Source of the DNA: Balneolaceae bacterium
GTDB lineage: Bacteria > Bacteroidota > Rhodothermia > Balneolales > Balneolaceae
Assembly (NCBI GenBank): GCA_017795005.1
Contig: CP051242.1
Span: 1,364,001 to 1,428,000, forward strand
Length of the DNA: 64,000 nucleotides
Reading direction: 5' to 3'
Shown here: one piece after another, positions 1,635 to 59,082 of the stretch
Layout: every line of letters starts with the position of its first letter
Numbering within the stretch: position 1 is the stretch's first letter
Program-made: the position numbers and the translations under genes
The notes under the pieces: model-generated
What the model saw: the letters and a program-made list of their open reading frames with translations, nothing else
What the model was told of the DNA's origin: nothing
Databases searched by the model: none

Positions 1635-3974
1635 CTAGTTAGTCTCTTCCTGATAATACTCACTATAAGTTCGTTTGTAGTAAGAATAGTTTGTATAATA
1701 ATCTGTACTCCTTTTCGGATCAAAAGCATTAAGCACGATACCCAAAACATCCGCATTTAGATGCTCCAGGCCTTCAAGAGTAAACGAAAGTTCTCGTTTT
1801 GTAGTAACATTAAACCTTGATACGACAACAATTCCGTCAACTAATCTTAACAAAGAAGCAGAGTCTGAAATTATACCATATGGTGCTGTATCCAGAATTA
1901 TGTGGTCATATCTTTCAGAAAGCTTGTCGATTAATTGCTTTAATCTTTTACTATCAAGCACTGTAGCGGGTTCTGGGGTTTTCTTACCAACTGTTATTAA
2001 ATCAACATTAGGAGCAATAGTCGTATTTGTAATATCACTAATTCTAATTGTTTCAAACAATGAATCCGTTAAGCCAGGCTCTCTGTTTTCTCCAAAAATT
2101 TTATGTTGAGTTGGTCTTCTAAGATCAAGGTCAATAATTAATACACTCTTTTCAGCTTCAGAAAATGTTACAGCCAAATTTGCAGCTACTGTACTTTTCC
2201 CTTCACCTTTAGTGGCACTGGTTACCATAATAACTTTGTAGGCTTTATCAGGATTTGCATAGATAACGTTAATTCGAAGCCTCCTATACGCCTCCGAAAT
2301 TGGAGAGATGTGGTCTAAAAAGGTAATTAATTGGTTAGAAATAGATTTATTATCAATGTATTGTCTTCCAATAGGATCCAACCCATCAAGAATGGAGAAG
2401 TCCGGAATAGTACCTAAAACAGGCAGCTTAAATACTTTAAATGAATCAGTGGAAGTGATTTTGTCATCTATCAAATCACGGACAATTATTAAACTTACTC
2501 CAAATATTCCACCAAGGAGTAATCCAATTAGGGTAATTACTCTCTTTTTAGGTTTTAAGGGTATTTTAGGAACCATTGCATAGTCTAAAGGCCTTCCAAG
2601 TCCGAACTGGGTTTTTTCCCATAAACTCATTTCAGCAAATTGACTTGATACAAGCAAAAATAATTCCTCATTAATAGCAACATCCCTTTTAAGTTTAGCG
2701 AGCTCAATGATATTATCAGGAAGTTCTTCAAATTGAGTATTAAGTGTTGTATAGTATTCATCAAACACTTCTTTTTGAGTTTCAATCTGAGACTGTTCAA
2801 CTTTTAATTCTACAAGTTTTTCTGATATTTCTGCTAGCCTCTGAGTTACTGACCCCTCTCCTCCAAGATTGGCAAAACTCAAATTCAAAAGGGAGTTAGA
2901 TTCTATAAGATCTGAGGTTAAGTTTGAAATCTGTCTTTTGAACTGGGCTATTTCATTATCAATACGCTGGATCTCAGCATGATCTTCGGTTATTTCTGGA
3001 TTTTTTGTTAGAATTTGAAGTCTCTGGGTTTCTAATTCCGATATTTGATATTGAAAACGTTGAAGTAGAGGGCCGAGCGCTTCAGAGTACTGATCAGCTA
3101 AACCGGGTCGAATTTCATCCAGTTGGCTTTCATATTGTTCAATAGCAGAGTTAACGGTAACTAATTGTACCTCAACAGTTTTTTTATCAGCTTCTAGTTC
3201 AGCGATTTGCTCAATAATCTTAGTTCCCTGTGATTCTACAGAGATCAGATTTGTATTGTTCATAAAGATCCTAAGAGAGTCTTCCCTTAGAGTTAGTTCG
3301 TCTTCAAAACGATTTTTTTCTCCTCTTAAAAAATTAAGAGCTGACATGGCCATAGTTCGGTTTTGTTCTGTAGACAACATTGAATATGTATCCATTGTAA
3401 GATTTACAATGGTATTTGTCTCAGTAGGCAACGGACTTTCAAATGTAATGCGGACTAAATCAGCATCGGGATCTACCTGACCAAATTTTATGACACTTCG
3501 GTACCGAGTAGCTATGGTGTCAATACCTACTGTTGTAGAATCTTCAGGATAAGCTCTCCATAGAATTGGAAACTTTCTTCCATATTCATCAAATTCTAAC
3601 TCTTTAATTCGTTCAGCAAGATCATAACTCAGTTGTACAGATCGTAAAATTTGTAACTCGTTAGCTATAGTACTTCCTACACCAATCCCATAAGTTGAAG
3701 AAAGTAAACTAGCCAAGTCAGATCCTGCGTATGAATATCTATTTTGTGTTTCACTAATTATAATAGTTCCACTACTTTGATAAATTGGGGTCATCATCAA
3801 TGAAATAATAGCTGCAGAAATTCCAAATAAAATTGTGGATAGCACTATTTTCCATTTATTAAGCATTAATAAATTAAAGAGTTTGAGAAGGTCTATCTCT
3901 CGATCATATTCCCGACTCGAATAATTAGAATTGTCAGGTGAGTGGCTTATACCATTGGAACCGTTGAGATGCAT
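1635..3974 (-). CDS. wzc: Polysaccharide co-polymerase / tyrosine autokinase (Wzc, BY-kinase)
   Basis: Inner-membrane BY-kinase that controls chain length and export of Wzy-type polysaccharides by cycles of tyrosine phosphorylation. The N-terminal Wzz domain has a TM segment (KWKIVLSTILFGISAAIISL), followed by a long periplasmic coiled-coil region, a second TM before the cytoplasmic domain, Walker A (TSATKGEGKST, about residues 583-593), A' motif VLIIDLDLRRP and Walker B IILDTAP. The C-terminal tail has 8 tyrosines in about 20 residues, the usual autophosphorylation cluster. The frame stays open to a TTG at 4067, but the ATG at 3974 is preferred: the added 31 residues do not look like Wzz and would leave only 21 bases to the divergent gene. 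The gene stands just before the large polysaccharide locus and probably regulates its polymer. Confidence 0.93.
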   Translation of the reverse strand: MHLNGSNGISHSPDNSNYSSREYDREIDLLKLFNLLMLNKWKIVLSTILFGISAAIISLMMTPIYQSSGTIIISETQNRYSYAGSDLASLLSSTYGIGVGSTIANELQILRSVQLSYDLAERIKELEFDEYGRKFPILWRAYPEDSTTVGIDTIATRYRSVIKFGQVDPDADLVRITFESPLPTETNTIVNLTMDTYSMLSTEQNRTMAMSALNFLRGEKNRFEDELTLREDSLRIFMNNTNLISVESQGTKIIEQIAELEADKKTVEVQLVTVNSAIEQYESQLDEIRPGLADQYSEALGPLLQRFQYQISELETQRLQILTKNPEITEDHAEIQRIDNEIAQFKRQISNLTSDLIESNSLLNLSFANLGGEGSVTQRLAEISEKLVELKVEQSQIETQKEVFDEYYTTLNTQFEELPDNIIELAKLKRDVAINEELFLLVSSQFAEMSLWEKTQFGLGRPLDYAMVPKIPLKPKKRVITLIGLLLGGIFGVSLIIVRDLIDDKITSTDSFKVFKLPVLGTIPDFSILDGLDPIGRQYIDNKSISNQLITFLDHISPISEAYRRLRINVIYANPDKAYKVIMVTSATKGEGKSTVAANLAVTFSEAEKSVLIIDLDLRRPTQHKIFGENREPGLTDSLFETIRISDITNTTIAPNVDLITVGKKTPEPATVLDSKRLKQLIDKLSERYDHIILDTAPYGIISDSASLLRLVDGIVVVSRFNVTTKRELSFTLEGLEHLNADVLGIVLNAFDPKRSTDYYTNYSYYKRTYSEYYQEETN

Positions 3975-4088
3975 ATACAAATACTTTATATCTTTATTTT
4001 GAACTAGATAAGATAGTAAAGAAATGGTTAATTTTGGGCAAAATTGTAGAGTTTTAAAAATTTCCAATTCATTTGAAAATAGATATTA

Positions 4089-4915: not shown

Positions 4916-5464
4916 ATGATAAATCAAAATTTGAAATTACTATTCTTTCACTTTTTTCTACTACTTTTTTTACTCAATACAGATGTACAAGCACAATTCC
5001 AGCAGCTACAAACATCGCAACAATTTCGTCTTGCAGACCGGGTTATTAGGATTGCTGAACCAGGCGAGTTAACTGATTCGGTGAATGTCTGGGGAGATGT
5101 CGGAAGTTCTGGGCGGTACTTAGTTCCTAAAGGAACTAATCTAGTGAAGCTTATCAGCTATAGCTTTGGTCCACAAACAATTAGAGATGGTCAAACAAAT
5201 CTTGACTGGTCAAAGATGCGTGTTGAAATAAATGTTCATGAATATTCTCAAGACAGTACTCTAAATTCCTTAACTACATTTAAGTATCGTTTTGAAGAAC
5301 CTTATCCAGAAGGTATGTATGACTTTATTGTTGAAAATAATCAAACGATTACAGTTAGAGTTAAGAGAAAACCTGGATTTGTTGACTATCTGGGAGTATT
5401 TGCATCTACGGTTTCTGCAGTTGCGGCAACTATCATTTTGATAGATAGGCTAGGTGGAAACTGA
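4916..5464 (+). CDS. Exported SLBB-like protein, probably polysaccharide-export related
   Basis: A 182-residue secreted protein. An N-terminal hydrophobic signal (LLFFHFFLLLFLLNTDVQA, cleavage near AQ at 26-27) precedes a stretch VNVWGDVGSSGRYLVPKGT that resembles SLBB (soluble ligand-binding beta-grasp) domains of Wza-type export proteins. A C-terminal hydrophobic helix (FASTVSAVAATIILI) may anchor it to a membrane. It is much shorter than a Wza (about 370 residues or more) and lacks the N-terminal poly_export domain, so it is not itself the outer-membrane channel. Its place between the wzc-like kinase and the polysaccharide locus suggests a part in export or assembly; that is inference. Confidence 0.6.
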   Translation: MINQNLKLLFFHFFLLLFLLNTDVQAQFQQLQTSQQFRLADRVIRIAEPGELTDSVNVWGDVGSSGRYLVPKGTNLVKLISYSFGPQTIRDGQTNLDWSKMRVEINVHEYSQDSTLNSLTTFKYRFEEPYPEGMYDFIVENNQTITVRVKRKPGFVDYLGVFASTVSAVAATIILIDRLGGN

Positions 5465-11384: not shown

Positions 11385-12622
11385 GTGGCAGTAAAAAGAC
11401 TGATTAAAAGATTACAAAAAACAGTCTCGGTTAATTTAATCAGGCATGTATGTCAATTATTACTTGGAATAATAATTGCTCGTTTTTTAGGAGCTGATGA
11501 AAAAGGATTACACTTTACTTTTACTACTATTGGAGCATCAATTGCAATACTTGGATCTTTTGGGTTGTCTAACTCAATCATATTTCATGTTAAAAAAAGT
11601 ACATAACCTCCAAACAATTTATTTTATATGTTCTAATAAGTAATCTGGTTCTTGGTATAGTTTGTAGCCTCATATTTCTATTTATACCAAATGTTATTTA
11701 TCAAATGTTGTTCGATGGTATTCAACCCTCTTCTTTTATTAAGGTTCTTTTTGTTCTGAGCATATTTTCAGCATTGATTAATTACCTGGTCAATAGCTTT
11801 TGTTTAGCTTTTGGAGAGATGAGAATATATTTAATTACGTTTGGTATAAGTTCATTGATAAATTTATCAATCATATCAGTTGGTATTTTTTATTATAACT
11901 TTGATATATATAACTGCTTAACTATTACTGTCTTTATTGAATTAATTTCTGCAATATGTTCATTTATATTTCTGTCTAATATCAAAGAGCTAAAGGGCTA
12001 TGAAGCAACTAAAGGTTTTAGAGATGTAATCAATTATGCTTCACAAAGTTATTTAGGAGTTTCGGGTAGTACTTTAATTAGCAATGGTGATACAATTGTG
12101 TTAGCGAATATTTTGACTCAGGAATCTCTGGGTATATATTCCATTGCTAAGACGGTCTACAGACTCTTTTCTATTATTCCGCAAACAATTAATAGTGTTA
12201 TCTTTGGTATTCTATGTGATTTAAATGCAAAAAATGCTTCGGTACTTGTAAACAAGACATGTTTAACTTTAACATTATTATTTACTTCTATCTTTATTGC
12301 TGGAGTTTTTTCACTGGATAAACTTATTGTATTTGTTTGGGGTATTGAATTTTCTACGGCCTATGAACCTGCTTTGATTTTATTAATTGCAGCTACTTTT
12401 ATTTCTGCTACATCTCCAATGAATCCTTATTTTTTAACACAAAATAAACCAATGATCTCAAGCCAGATAACACTTATTAGTGGTACTTTGGGATTGGTAG
12501 GAGCAATTATGTTAGCGCCTCATTTTGGGATAATTGGCGCTGCAACTTCTGTATTAATTGCAGGGATGACCACTTGTGTACTGCGAATATTCAACTATAG
12601 AAAATTAACGAAAGTGGTTTAA
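11385..12622 (+). pseudogene. wzx: O-unit flippase (Wzx-like), interrupted by a frameshift in an A7 tract
   Basis: Lipid-linked oligosaccharide flippase of the polysaccharide biosynthesis/MATE-like type with many membrane segments. As written it is split: the first part (GTG start at 11385) ends at TAA 11604-11606 after 73 codons, and the rest is readable to 12622 in another frame. Reading the run of seven A at 11592-11598 as eight joins both parts into one protein of about 412 residues, through VKKKYITSKQFILYVLISNL, with a normal flippase hydrophobicity pattern. The cause may be a sequencing or assembly error, a true mutation, or slippage-based phase variation. The second part has no good start of its own (its first ATG is at 11705). 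The gene sits directly before the glycosyltransferases and the Wzy polymerase. Confidence 0.85.
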
Positions 12623-15367: not shown

Positions 15368-16585
15368 ATGAAGTTTGGAAAAGATAAATTAGGGTTATTT
15401 ATAATTAACATTACTTATCTATTGGTGCTTTTTAATGCTCCGCTCACTGCAATAGGCATTAAGTACGGCTACCTAATTATGTACGTAGGTACGATTATTT
15501 TTTTTCTGAGCGGAAAATTAAGTGCATATAAGCTCAAAATCTTTGCGCTGCACATTTTCTTTGTTTTTTTGATGATACTGCTATTGTGTTTAGCATTAGT
15601 ATTTAACGGAGGAGGTTCAGACGCTGTTATAGCATTTGGTCTATATAGCTCTCCTATAGTCATATGGATATTATTTAGTTGCAGTAATTCTACTCTCACT
15701 TTTCCAAAGATTTTCAGGTCAACATATTTACTTACGGTCATAGTAGCATACTTAGGCATCATCCAATATTTTATTAGTCCAACCCTTTTTGGTTTTTTAC
15801 CAATAGATTCAATGGCAATGAAATGGGCTTCTGGTCAGTCATTTAATGATTATGCAGTTTTTTTTAGGGCAACATCAACTTTAGGGAGTCCACAGGTATT
15901 TGGTCTTTTTTGTGCTTTAAATCTAATTTTAACCGTTAGATTTAGGAAAATATTCTCTAGTAAAATTTTCTATATAGGATTGATAGGGCTTACTTTCGGA
16001 GGTGCACTTAGTGCAAATAAGTCTTTTATTTTAATTGTTATACTATATTTCCTTTTAAATAATTTTAGAACTTATTTGGTTTCCTTCAGATCTATTGCTG
16101 TATTTGGAATTTTAGGATTTCTTATTATTTCAAATTCTCAATTAATTATTGAACGCCTTCCAATTCTTGAAAGAGTTGTTTCTGTTAATAAAGTAATTGA
16201 ACAAGAAGCCAGTGATGGAGATGGAAGGATTGCTCGATATTCATTTATACTGTCTAATGCGAATCCAATAATAGGAGAGGGATTAGGTTCAATTACAAAT
16301 AAATCCATTTATAATTTAAAAGCTGCTGAGAGTTATTATTTGAAACTATATTATGAAGCAGGAATGTTGATAATGATATTTTTCATTTTTTTAAATTTTA
16401 TAAGTTTATATGGCGCATTTCAATTTAATCCCGTAGACGCAATAATTGTTATGCTTATTATGCTAAGCATGATTATTGTTCACGCTTTTGAAAGCCCTGC
16501 TTTTCTCATTGTATGGTGCTACTTTTTAGGGTTTGCTTTAAATCTTGGGAAAAAAAATATTTTCAGTTTTGAAAAACTCAGCTAA
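15368..16585 (+). CDS. wzy: O-antigen polymerase (Wzy-like) membrane protein
   Basis: A 405-residue integral membrane protein with about ten or more hydrophobic segments spread over its length and a larger periplasmic loop near residues 255-320 (ERLPILERVVSVNKVIEQEASDG...GEGLGS), the layout of Wzy polymerases and O-antigen ligases. The loop ends with GEGLGSITNKS and is followed by YYLKLYYEAGMLIMI, as usual for the Wzy_C/O-antigen ligase superfamily. It should polymerise lipid-linked repeat units in the periplasm after flipping by the Wzx-like protein. Sequence is very AT-rich. Its 3' end overlaps the next frame by about 40 bases or less. Confidence 0.75.
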   Translation: MKFGKDKLGLFIINITYLLVLFNAPLTAIGIKYGYLIMYVGTIIFFLSGKLSAYKLKIFALHIFFVFLMILLLCLALVFNGGGSDAVIAFGLYSSPIVIWILFSCSNSTLTFPKIFRSTYLLTVIVAYLGIIQYFISPTLFGFLPIDSMAMKWASGQSFNDYAVFFRATSTLGSPQVFGLFCALNLILTVRFRKIFSSKIFYIGLIGLTFGGALSANKSFILIVILYFLLNNFRTYLVSFRSIAVFGILGFLIISNSQLIIERLPILERVVSVNKVIEQEASDGDGRIARYSFILSNANPIIGEGLGSITNKSIYNLKAAESYYLKLYYEAGMLIMIFFIFLNFISLYGAFQFNPVDAIIVMLIMLSMIIVHAFESPAFLIVWCYFLGFALNLGKKNIFSFEKLS

Positions 16586-27057: not shown

Positions 27058-28245
27058 ATGAGTGGGCAGTTAATTCAAGTTTTATTGGGTTTAGTAGTTG
27101 CGGTTGGGGTGTCACTTTTTTCGGTACCCATTCTACGTAAAGTCGCATATTTAAGTGATCTGTATGACAAACCAGATAATGAACGTAAGTTACATGATCG
27201 GTATGTTCCTACACTTGGCGGAGTTGGAATCTTTTTAGCTTTTTTTGTTGGGTTTTCTATTAGTGGTTTTGCTGAACAAATTCAGGGGTATCCATACTTG
27301 GCAGCCGCTCTTATTACACTTTTATTTACTGGTTTAAAAGATGATATAGTTGATCTTTCGCCAAAAACTAAATTACTTGTCGAACTAGCTGTTGCTGCAT
27401 TATTGATTTTTGGGTGTGATTTTTATATTTCAAATTTTTATGGGGTATTTGGTATCGAATCTATTCCGTATTGGGCTAGTGTATTAATTACGACATTTAC
27501 TATGATTGTTGTTGTCAATGCTTATAATTTGATAGATGGTATTGATGGATTAGCTGGAGGAGTTGGTGCGATTGCAGCTGCTTTTTTTGGAATAGGTTTT
27601 TATGTATCAGGCGAATACGCCTTTGCTGTATTAGCTCTTACTCTTTTCGTTTCCTTAGTAAGTTACTTAAAATTTAATTTTCACCCTGCTAAAATATTTA
27701 TGGGTGATACAGGCTCCCTTGTAATTGGCTTTTTACTCGCAACACTGGCTATTAATTTCATCGGCTTAAATGAAAGCAGTGAATATGTATCTAGGTTTGG
27801 ATATTCTTCATCTATACTTCCCATTGCAATATTAGCTTTACCATTATATGATACTATAACCGTATTTTATAAACGAATAAGAAAAGGTAAATCTCCATTT
27901 AGTCCTGGTCAGGATCATGTTCATCATGCCATGATAAACGCGGGCTTAGGACATAAAAGCACCTCAATTTTACTTTACTTTTGTAGTGTATTTATCATAT
28001 TAATAGCAATTAGTTTGAGAGATGTTGAAGTAAATATCTCACTTTCAATAATTGTAGCAACAATGTTTCTCTTCTTACCTACTAATGGACTCAAAAGAAA
28101 ATTTATCAAGAAAATGGGTATAGATCTGGATTTGAACTCCAGAAAATCTGGACTTGTTGGTAATCAAGAAAAAACCAAAAAGAATATTCTTGATAATGTT
28201 GATGTATCTTCTAGAAGCAAAACTCAGGAAGATATTAAGGTTTAG
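27058..28245 (+). CDS. Undecaprenyl-phosphate sugar-1-phosphate transferase (WecA/MraY family)
   Basis: Initiates repeat-unit synthesis by moving a HexNAc-1-phosphate from UDP to undecaprenyl phosphate. The 395-residue polytopic protein has the family motifs RKLHDRYVPTLGGVGI, LKDDIVDLSP, NAYNLIDGIDGLAGG, FHPAKIFMGDTGSLVIGF and the SPGQDHVHHAMINAG loop, with about ten membrane helices. The C-terminal tail of about 50 polar residues (after KKMGIDLDLN) is an addition to the core. A 127-base AT-rich gap precedes it, so a separate promoter is possible, but no exact TAnnTTTG was found there. Confidence 0.9.
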   Translation: MSGQLIQVLLGLVVAVGVSLFSVPILRKVAYLSDLYDKPDNERKLHDRYVPTLGGVGIFLAFFVGFSISGFAEQIQGYPYLAAALITLLFTGLKDDIVDLSPKTKLLVELAVAALLIFGCDFYISNFYGVFGIESIPYWASVLITTFTMIVVVNAYNLIDGIDGLAGGVGAIAAAFFGIGFYVSGEYAFAVLALTLFVSLVSYLKFNFHPAKIFMGDTGSLVIGFLLATLAINFIGLNESSEYVSRFGYSSSILPIAILALPLYDTITVFYKRIRKGKSPFSPGQDHVHHAMINAGLGHKSTSILLYFCSVFIILIAISLRDVEVNISLSIIVATMFLFLPTNGLKRKFIKKMGIDLDLNSRKSGLVGNQEKTKKNILDNVDVSSRSKTQEDIKV

Positions 28246-33809: not shown

Positions 33810-34337
33810 ATGCTAAAAAGTCCGATAGCACAATTCATTTTCAAAGCATTGGCAATTTTTATTGTCTGGTATGTAGTTTATGAATTATGGCTTCTACCTG
33901 ATGGAAGATTAGATGAATGGTTAGCTCTTAATATTGTAAGTGTGAGTAGGGGTTTAGTAGAAGGATTTGGATATGAAGTTTGGTCAGTTAATCGAATTAT
34001 TGGGATTAATGAAAATGCTGGAATTGAGCTGGTTGATGGCTGTACTGGAATTTCGGCTATTGGACTCTTTTTAGGATTTATTATTGCCTATCCAGGTGAT
34101 TGGAAAAACAGAATCAGCTTTTCTTTTTTAGGAATCGGGATAATTTATTTAGTAAATATTATTAGGATTGTTGTTTTGGTTATTACACAAGAGGAATGGG
34201 TAGAACTCTTTGATTTAACTCATGATTATTCTACAACAATGATCTTCTATCTCGTTATTTTTTTACTTTGGGTAATTTGGGTAAAACTTGAAGATTATCT
34301 TAAAGTAAATACTTTTGTGAAACCCGAAATAAAATGA
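33810..34337 (+). CDS. Exosortase/archaeosortase family transpeptidase (XrtX-like)
   Basis: A 175-residue inner-membrane protein with about four to six hydrophobic segments. The likely catalytic set of exosortases is present: Cys78 in LVDGCTGISAIGLFLGF, Arg119 in VNIIRIVVL and His138 in DLTHDYSTTMIFY. Exosortases cleave C-terminal sorting signals of exported proteins and probably attach them to a glycan or lipid; they are often linked to exopolysaccharide loci, as here. The short size and the following small membrane gene fit the Bacteroidota XrtX/XrtF kind. I see no protein with a PEP-CTERM-like tail in this window. Confidence 0.82.
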   Translation: MLKSPIAQFIFKALAIFIVWYVVYELWLLPDGRLDEWLALNIVSVSRGLVEGFGYEVWSVNRIIGINENAGIELVDGCTGISAIGLFLGFIIAYPGDWKNRISFSFLGIGIIYLVNIIRIVVLVITQEEWVELFDLTHDYSTTMIFYLVIFLLWVIWVKLEDYLKVNTFVKPEIK

Positions 34338-37258: not shown

Positions 37259-38002
37259 ATGATCAAATTGTTCGTAACAGATCTGGATGGTTGTGTGACA
37301 GATCCATTTATCACTCCAGACTGGAAGGCTTACACAAAACTCAGAGAGTTAAATCTAGAAAGTCATAAAGATGATACTATACCACCATTAACTATTTGCA
37401 CAGGCAGACCAATGCCTTATGCAGAAGCTCAGGCTCAGATTTTGGGGGTTAGACTTCCATTTATATTTGAAAGTGGTGGAGGTATGTACGATGTGGTTAA
37501 TAACAGAATTACATGGACCCCTCACTTGGATGAAGAAGCAAAAAAACAGGTTTCTGAGATCAAAGAATGGTCGAGAAACAATATCATCAATAAGTATAAG
37601 TCAGCAATTCCGGAATTCGCAAAATTTACTGATATAGGAATTATCCATCAGGACACACCGACTATAAATGAGATGGCTGCAAAATGTGAAGAATATATTC
37701 TTACAAATTATAGTCGCTTTGAAGTTCATAAAACAGAAGTATCCGTTAATATTATTCTAAAAAAAGCGAATAAAGGAGAGGGTATGAAGATGATTGCAAA
37801 TCACTTTAATTTGAAGCTGGAAGAGTTGGCGTACATTGGTGATTCAAGTGGAGATGTTCCTGCTCTTAAGATTATTGGGATGCCTTTTGCACCTTCCAAT
37901 GCTGCAGAGGTAGCCAAAGAAGTTGGTGAGGTTACTGAACTAGAATCCACAAAAGGAGTTGTAGAAGCCTATCAGAAAATTATTGAACGAAACAGAAGCT
38001 AA
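37259..38002 (+). CDS. HAD-superfamily phosphatase (Cof/SPP-like)
   Basis: A 247-residue HAD hydrolase. Motif I is FVTDLDGCVTDP (nucleophile D8 and D10), motif II TICTGRP, motif III the lysine of KKANKGEGMKMI, and motif IV IGDSSGDVPALKI, with a C2-type cap between II and III, as in sugar- or glycolate-phosphate phosphatases. Substrate not predictable. It follows the VWA gene by 6 bases and ends one base before the convergent DUF4175 stop, leaving no room for a terminator between them. Confidence 0.85.
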   Translation: MIKLFVTDLDGCVTDPFITPDWKAYTKLRELNLESHKDDTIPPLTICTGRPMPYAEAQAQILGVRLPFIFESGGGMYDVVNNRITWTPHLDEEAKKQVSEIKEWSRNNIINKYKSAIPEFAKFTDIGIIHQDTPTINEMAAKCEEYILTNYSRFEVHKTEVSVNIILKKANKGEGMKMIANHFNLKLEELAYIGDSSGDVPALKIIGMPFAPSNAAEVAKEVGEVTELESTKGVVEAYQKIIERNRS

Positions 38003-57933: not shown

Positions 57934-58080
57934 ACCTGTCTCCCCTCGGGGGGAGACCGATTTCACGCTTGCGTGAAATCAGAGGGAGGACGCTTACTTC
58001 AAATAATTGCGAGTAGGTTCCGTCCTCTCCCTGACTTGCTCAATATTCGCAAGTCTGTCCCTCCCCAAGGAGGGACAGTT
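57934..58080 (+). repeat. Structured intergenic repeat, copy A (about 147 bp)
   Basis: Begins directly after the M1 peptidase stop and ends 20 bases before the yebC stop. Order of stems: CTGTCTCCCC/GGGGAGAC; TTTCACGC/GCGTGAAA; GAGGGAGGAC paired with GTCCTCTCCCT; ACTTGC/GCAAGT; and CTGTCCCTCC/GGAGGGACAG. Both ends match copy B at 58937-59082 nearly base for base, while the interior differs but keeps stems. Confidence 0.85.
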
Positions 58081-58936: not shown

Positions 58937-59082
58937 ACCTGTCTCCCCTTGGGGGGAGACAGAAATCACGCTTGCGGGGTTTCAGAGGGAGGACATGTTT
59001 GGCAATTTAGAACGAGCTTGCTCCGTCCTCTCCCTGAGCCAAAACAAGTTTTGACTCTGTCCCTCCCCAAGGAGGGACAGTT
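58937..59082 (+). repeat. Structured intergenic repeat, copy B (about 146 bp)
   Basis: Same orientation and same ends as copy A (57934-58080): terminal hairpins CTGTCTCCCC/GGGGAGACAG and CTGTCCCTCC/GGAGGGACAG, central GAGGGAGGAC...GTCCTCTCCCT. The inner stems differ in sequence (GAGC/GCTC; CAAAAC/GTTTTG) but pair at matching places. It lies between the end of cysM and the start of yebC. Confidence 0.85.

Follow-up and report, generated by a model that had tools for sequence, protein, structure and literature searches.

The window analysed here, a 64,000-nucleotide stretch from the genome of a Balneolaceae bacterium whose assembly consists of one contig with a completeness of 99.5%, contains a glycan locus anchored by exosortase X at positions 4089-38002. 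Between about 4 and 38 kb the sequence is AT-rich, with a GC content of 0.30-0.37 in 2-kb steps against 0.37-0.43 beyond it, and carries NeuB-, NeuC-, and NeuA-like genes together with glycosyltransferases, a pyruvyl transferase, WbuX/HisH/HisF-type genes, and UDP-sugar dehydrogenases. The initiating sugar-phosphate transferase is of the WecA type (27058..28245, plus strand; PF00953), and both this gene and the glycosyltransferases of the locus have open frames. The conserved anchor itself, exosortase X (XrtX; 33810..34337, plus strand), scored above the cut-off of the NCBIfam model NF046081 and was matched in 50 of the 92 genomes searched in the family; a literature search on exosortase X found no paper. 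A Wzc-like polysaccharide tyrosine autokinase is encoded ahead of the locus (1635..4067, minus strand; TIGR01007 above cut-off), its best-scoring model being Wzc PRK11519, below the cut-off of that model. Four locus genes, at 4916, 12646, 15368, and 34334, had no family match. The one at 15368..16585 (plus strand) encodes a 10-TM protein and is probably the Wzy polymerase, judging from its size, number of transmembrane segments, and place.

Between these genes lies wzx (11385-12622), which is the only flippase gene found in this exosortase-X-linked locus of the Wzx/Wzy type. Its setting is that expected of a flippase, namely a glycan locus that also holds an initiating transferase and a Wzy polymerase, the latter recognized by size and number of transmembrane segments. 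Neither a second flippase nor an ABC exporter was found among the locus genes scanned (all but those of 37259-38002), and five other flippases of the Polysacc_synt family, all without internal stops, are encoded elsewhere in the genome.

As written, the wzx gene is split into two parts. Part 1 (11385..11606, plus strand) starts with the GTG at 11385, ends with the TAA at 11604-11606, and encodes the N-terminal 73 residues of the flippase. Part 2 (11597..12622, plus strand) continues in a shifted frame and, read from 11597, comprises 341 residues, the first ATG, GTG, or TTG being the ATG at 11705. The last stop of this second frame ahead of part 2 is the TAA at 11591-11593, from which the frame is open to 12622 with no second lesion. 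Both frames are open together only over 11594..11603 (plus strand), bounded by these two TAA codons, so the frame was lost within the run of exactly seven A at 11592..11598 (plus strand) or the next five bases. At a GC content of about 30%, some 8% of codons would be stops, and 341 open codons would occur by chance with a probability of about 1e-12 according to a hand estimate; hence the second frame is not explained by chance. The simplest reading is that the flippase frame was broken by a deficit of one base. Two extra bases would yield the same frame, and no homologue was found near enough to tell one base short from two too long.

The relationship between the two parts was analysed with a flippase HMM built from 11 other proteins, nine of them flippase-like ones (part 2 being excluded) and the rest ORFs of flippase size from the loci of G001 and G034. 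Part 1 matched positions 23-81 (E 1e-7) and part 2 positions 91-419 (E 1e-24) of this model, i.e., co-linear, non-overlapping, and nearly abutting stretches; six of the 11 members had been recruited through part 2, which flatters the E-value of part 2 and leaves that of part 1 independent. The same HMM matched three others of the surveyed ORFs of the genome at E < 1e-6, two of which were flippases already known from the Polysacc_synt search, and the next protein had an E-value of 0.012. None of six Wzy-like decoys from relatives, nor the probable Wzy of the window, rose above the inclusion line. Each part has a possible start of its own (GTG 11385 and ATG 11705), and one could imagine two independent genes, one for a small membrane protein of 73 aa and one for a separate transporter of 305 aa. 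This is almost certainly not the case, and the idea was rejected because the HMM matches of the two parts lie side by side, without overlap, in a single flippase profile, and because the matched segment of part 2 starts at residue 4, upstream of the first ATG. A restart of translation at the stop was also considered and rejected.

An AlphaFold model of part 2, based on an alignment of 10 sequences, had a pLDDT of 76.0 and a pTM of 0.71. All 19 PDB chains matched by this model at E <= 0.001 were MurJ, WzxE, or MATE proteins, the best being MurJ 6nc8 (E 8.4e-5, TM 0.69 by query); WzxE 9g9m was matched at E 3.5e-4. Searches with the two parts found no Pfam family at E <= 0.001, part 2 had no NCBIfam family, and some accepted cluster flippases of relatives likewise miss Pfam or match it weakly, so these misses are compatible with membership among the Wzx proteins. 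The adjacent profile matches confirm, at the level of sequence, that parts 1 and 2 belong to a single gene of about 412 residues when joined, and, together with the predicted fold of part 2, they support its assignment as a Wzx-type flippase of the MOP superfamily. In these respects the earlier note, which had read seven A at this position and had seen in the two parts one flippase of about 412 residues, is borne out by the exact sequence, by the profile, and by the fold matches to MurJ, WzxE, and MATE proteins.

Searches of the genus, family, order, and phylum did not find a close relative of the wzx gene. Part 2 matched only itself in the genus (one of three genomes) and, at E <= 1e-10, in the phylum (one of 392). 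Matches were obtained in 10 of 92 family genomes, comprising itself and nine weak ones (at most 28% identical over long and at most 40% over short stretches), and in three of 84 genomes of the order at E <= 1e-6, itself included. Pattern scans of genome contigs gave 26 matches for part 2 and 223 for part 1, none of which was confirmed. The XrtX regions of ten relatives were also compared, that of G034 covering 21.4 kb up to the contig end. A variable glycan cluster lies ahead of XrtX in seven of them (G001, G002, G034, G035, G038, G015, and G005) and is absent from this place in three (G025, G032, and G029). Each of the seven clusters contains one or more unbroken ORFs (432-495 aa) with multiple helices and the size of a flippase. 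When those of all the relatives but G034 were searched against Pfam, a flippase family was found above cut-off in G002, G035, G038, and G015, MatE was matched weakly, below cut-off, in G005, and no match was obtained in G001. From their sequences, it looks as if every relative's cluster examined has an unbroken flippase candidate, and as if that gene is the broken one in the present genome.

The surroundings of XrtX differ in their conservation. The 3' block beside it (two UDP-sugar dehydrogenases and WbpB/D/E-like genes) is kept in five of the seven cluster-bearing relatives and partly retained in G038 and G015, the 5' block varies among relatives, and an SLBB/Poly_export gene adjoins XrtX in G002, G005, and G038.

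Beyond the glycan locus, the window has four matches to whalefall-1 (RF01762), at 57936-57991 (plus), 58022-58078 (minus), 58939-58994 (plus), and 59025-59080 (minus), which form two inverted pairs, 85% alike, with members about 30 bases apart. Among 150 candidates scored per genome, there were at least 60 matches at E <= 0.001 in this genome, at least 42 in G002, at least 8 in G028, and at least 3 in G001, some of the matches at this threshold falling below the curated score. Any match among the scored candidates was seen in six of 19 relatives, and one above the cut-off in three of 19, compared with none of 14 controls. For 53 of the 60 matches listed in this genome, a copy on the opposite strand is present no more than 150 bases away; given this inverted pairing and the number of copies, whalefall-1 has the appearance of a dispersed, REP/BIME-like palindromic repeat and not of a single sRNA gene. 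We regard these pairs as more curious than the flippase break.

The frequency of comparable breaks was estimated in a frameshift survey, in which the proteins of two relatives (G001 and G002) were compared with 1.03 Mb of this genome. Of the 826 ORFs used as queries, 488 had a match, and these matches fell on 359 distinct coding stretches totalling 410,122 bp and including 232 A/T runs of at least seven. Extension of the survey along the chromosome, the rule being slightly altered, added few matches (169 instead of 160), and the comparison with G002 and G001 was then carried on in a second region. Only three of the 359 coding stretches were frame-shifted, all three short by one base and all outside the window: a gene that we take to be lepA (elongation factor 4; 1492497-1494295), a presumably YtxJ-like gene (1475142-1475518), both names being assigned by recall from the sequence and not by a family search, and a large gene (2470183-2472827). 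The deficit of the YtxJ-like gene is located in an A7 run, and two of the three deficits lie outside any long run. A fourth candidate of the present genome (G000), with a shift of +7, was dropped, its alignment being full of stops (a spurious frame), and an extra candidate in G001 under a looser first rule, which was not co-linear, was removed by a stricter rule.

In the reverse test, counted by query, G001 had one shift in 293 (a surplus base in a G8 run) and G002 had two in 218 (both one base short); compared with these relatives, the present genome does not clearly stand out as error-prone. At its own rate, 0.25 breaks are expected in the 34-kb locus, with a probability of 0.22 for at least one, so the wzx break is within the genome's ordinary background of one-base deficits. 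Stops were present in eight of 465 alignments of the relatives' proteins to this genome, and these eight, judged by eye and not one by one, appeared to be shadow ORFs or over-long N-termini; by this noisy test no convincing nonsense mutation was found among the 465 alignments. The same noisy test gave 7 of 270 in G001 and 3 of 205 in G002.

These data favour the view that wzx is frame-broken in a non-programmed way and forms part of the genome's background of scattered one-base deficits, to which we assign a probability of roughly 0.77. As to the cause, a consensus error introduced in the A run by sequencing or assembly is the most likely one, with about an even chance. In lepA, the parts before and after the break each share 95% identity with the intact G001 protein, so this break is either very recent or not real, and a background that includes lepA suggests consensus errors. 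The rate of deficits is no higher than in the relatives, which leaves room for a real mutation.

The next likeliest cause, possible although clearly less probable than a consensus error, is a recent real loss by replication slippage, e.g., in culture, which would have turned wzx into a pseudogene, with another flippase substituting for it or the glycan not being made. Draft relatives have deficits at a similar rate, and part 2 carries no second lesion, so the break, if real, would be recent. Substitution by one of the five unbroken flippase-family proteins encoded elsewhere would make such a loss tolerable, and capsule flippases can in part replace one another according to an excerpt of PMC11759038. 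The similar break of lepA in the same genome, however, makes a technical cause likelier, and the lack of a convincing nonsense mutation in the noisy test of 465 alignments also speaks against fixed losses. If the deficit is real, the one wzx gene of this locus would give rise to a stub of 73 aa and, at most, to a C-terminal fragment of 305 aa translated from the ATG at 11705, and the locus would be without a flippase unless another flippase of the genome substitutes. In Escherichia coli, disruption of wzxE or wzxB while the pathway is running is described in passages of PMC11813082 as lethal, with undecaprenyl phosphate being trapped; the same passages mention that wzxE did not prove essential in studies of mutant libraries. 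In view of this lethality, the open initiating transferase and glycosyltransferases of the present locus would disfavour a stable real loss, and the cost of losing a flippase is a further and indirect reason to suspect the consensus.

Phase variation has also been considered, in which slippage in the A run would toggle the flippase and the surface glycan, the assembly having captured the off state. Two points invite this idea: a single flippase was found in what is a surface-glycan locus, and the run lies early, at 17% of gene length, in a part of genes that is rich in such runs. Of 361 A runs of at least seven, 101 occur within the initial 20% of the gene, a mild excess over one in five. This early-position excess is genome-wide and does not single out wzx. 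Passages of PMC2831843 report that, in most of 99 prokaryotes, genes contain more A/T tracts of up to seven bases than expected, placed towards the 5' end, and interpret them as a general inactivation device; slippage measured there in a Listeria A6/A7 tract was about 5.5e-7 (A6 to A7) and 3.9e-8 (A7 to A6), which documents slippage in such a tract but at frequencies that are slow for a switch.

Run statistics based on 632 sampled ORFs of at least 200 aa, with codon shuffles as the chance level, argue against a switch as well. An A run of at least seven occurs in 251 of the 632 ORFs and, among 27 genes comparable in length and GC content, in 16, and the glycan locus alone has 57 A/T runs of at least seven. 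In genes, A/T runs of seven are near chance (418 observed vs. 387 in shuffles), whereas longer ones are depleted (eight bases, 80 vs. 138; nine, 9 vs. 51; ten or more, 0 vs. about 29). Slippery runs are avoided in the genes of this genome, and there is no stock of contingency tracts; a repeat tract longer than expected by chance, the mark of a phase-variable gene, was not found in wzx. Moreover, silencing a glycan by shutting off nothing but its flippase would come at a high cost, according to the same passages of PMC11813082, and a literature search for phase-variable wzx returned no phase-variable flippase among the titles of the matches listed. Phase variation is thus quite improbable here. 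A related proposal, that a real A7 run is put to use, slow and reversible slippage in DNA or RNA keeping the sole flippase of the locus off in most cells as a low-frequency bet on export, is improbable too. The earlier note had offered an error, a knock-out, or a switch as causes; an error or a chance knock-out fits the three background deficits among 359 stretches, lepA included, whereas the switch conflicts with the ordinary nature of such runs and the depletion of longer ones. Its remark that a run of 7-8 A is short holds, a run of seven being short by the standards of known slippage and common in the genome, but its reading of the early position as a sign of a phase-variable tract is weakened by the genome-wide excess.

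A real deficit might also be bypassed in expression, RNA polymerase slippage or ribosomal frameshifting giving some full-length flippase. The run consists of A throughout, and the direction of the shift is that of a -1 translational shift or of a one-base gain in RNA. However, the known -1 frameshift heptamer A AAA AAG is in the phase of the downstream frame and not of the upstream frame, and no downstream RNA structure beyond chance was found (fold z-scores of 1.14, 0.48, and 0.49, all on the unstable side); programmed -1 ribosomal frameshifting was rejected on these two grounds. For slippage, seven A is short of the nine typical of slippage-prone runs, nine A/T being the length at which selection against slippage is visible in a large share of bacterial genomes according to part of PMC1088944, and an extract of PMC6260861 states a minimum of seven T for productive slippage by E. 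coli RNA polymerase, with a bias away from A. Some low-level slippage at A7 may occur, but bypass as an explanation is very unlikely, and switch and bypass taken jointly still have a small share of the probability.

The finding bears chiefly on annotation: the flippase of this locus should be recorded as frame-broken, and the locus should not be described as phase-variable. The break has the look of a routine sequencing error or a chance mutation, not of an on/off switch; if the deficit proved to be real and stable, the locus would offer a case in which to study how cells survive flippase loss while the upstream pathway is open.

Three known systems offer themselves for comparison. The split gene resembles the Wzx/MOP flippases (PF01943 and PF13440; WzxE, MurJ, and MATE folds) in its size of about 412 aa, its multi-helix membrane nature, its setting beside glycosyltransferases and a probable Wzy, the predicted fold of part 2, and the co-linear HMM match of both parts. 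It differs from them in that a Pfam match (either part) and an NCBIfam match (part 2) are missing, the closest relatives found share no more than 28% identity in the longer matches, and its frame is broken as written. With the slipped-strand phase-variable glycan genes, it shares the loss of frame at a single-base run in a surface-glycan gene, whereas its run is short and ordinary for a genome that has no surplus of long runs. With the indel errors that fragment genes in long-read genomes, as described in part of PMC12007338, it shares the pattern of isolated one-base deficits in otherwise open genes, a housekeeping gene included; unlike in that system, the frequency of deficits is no higher here than in two draft relatives.
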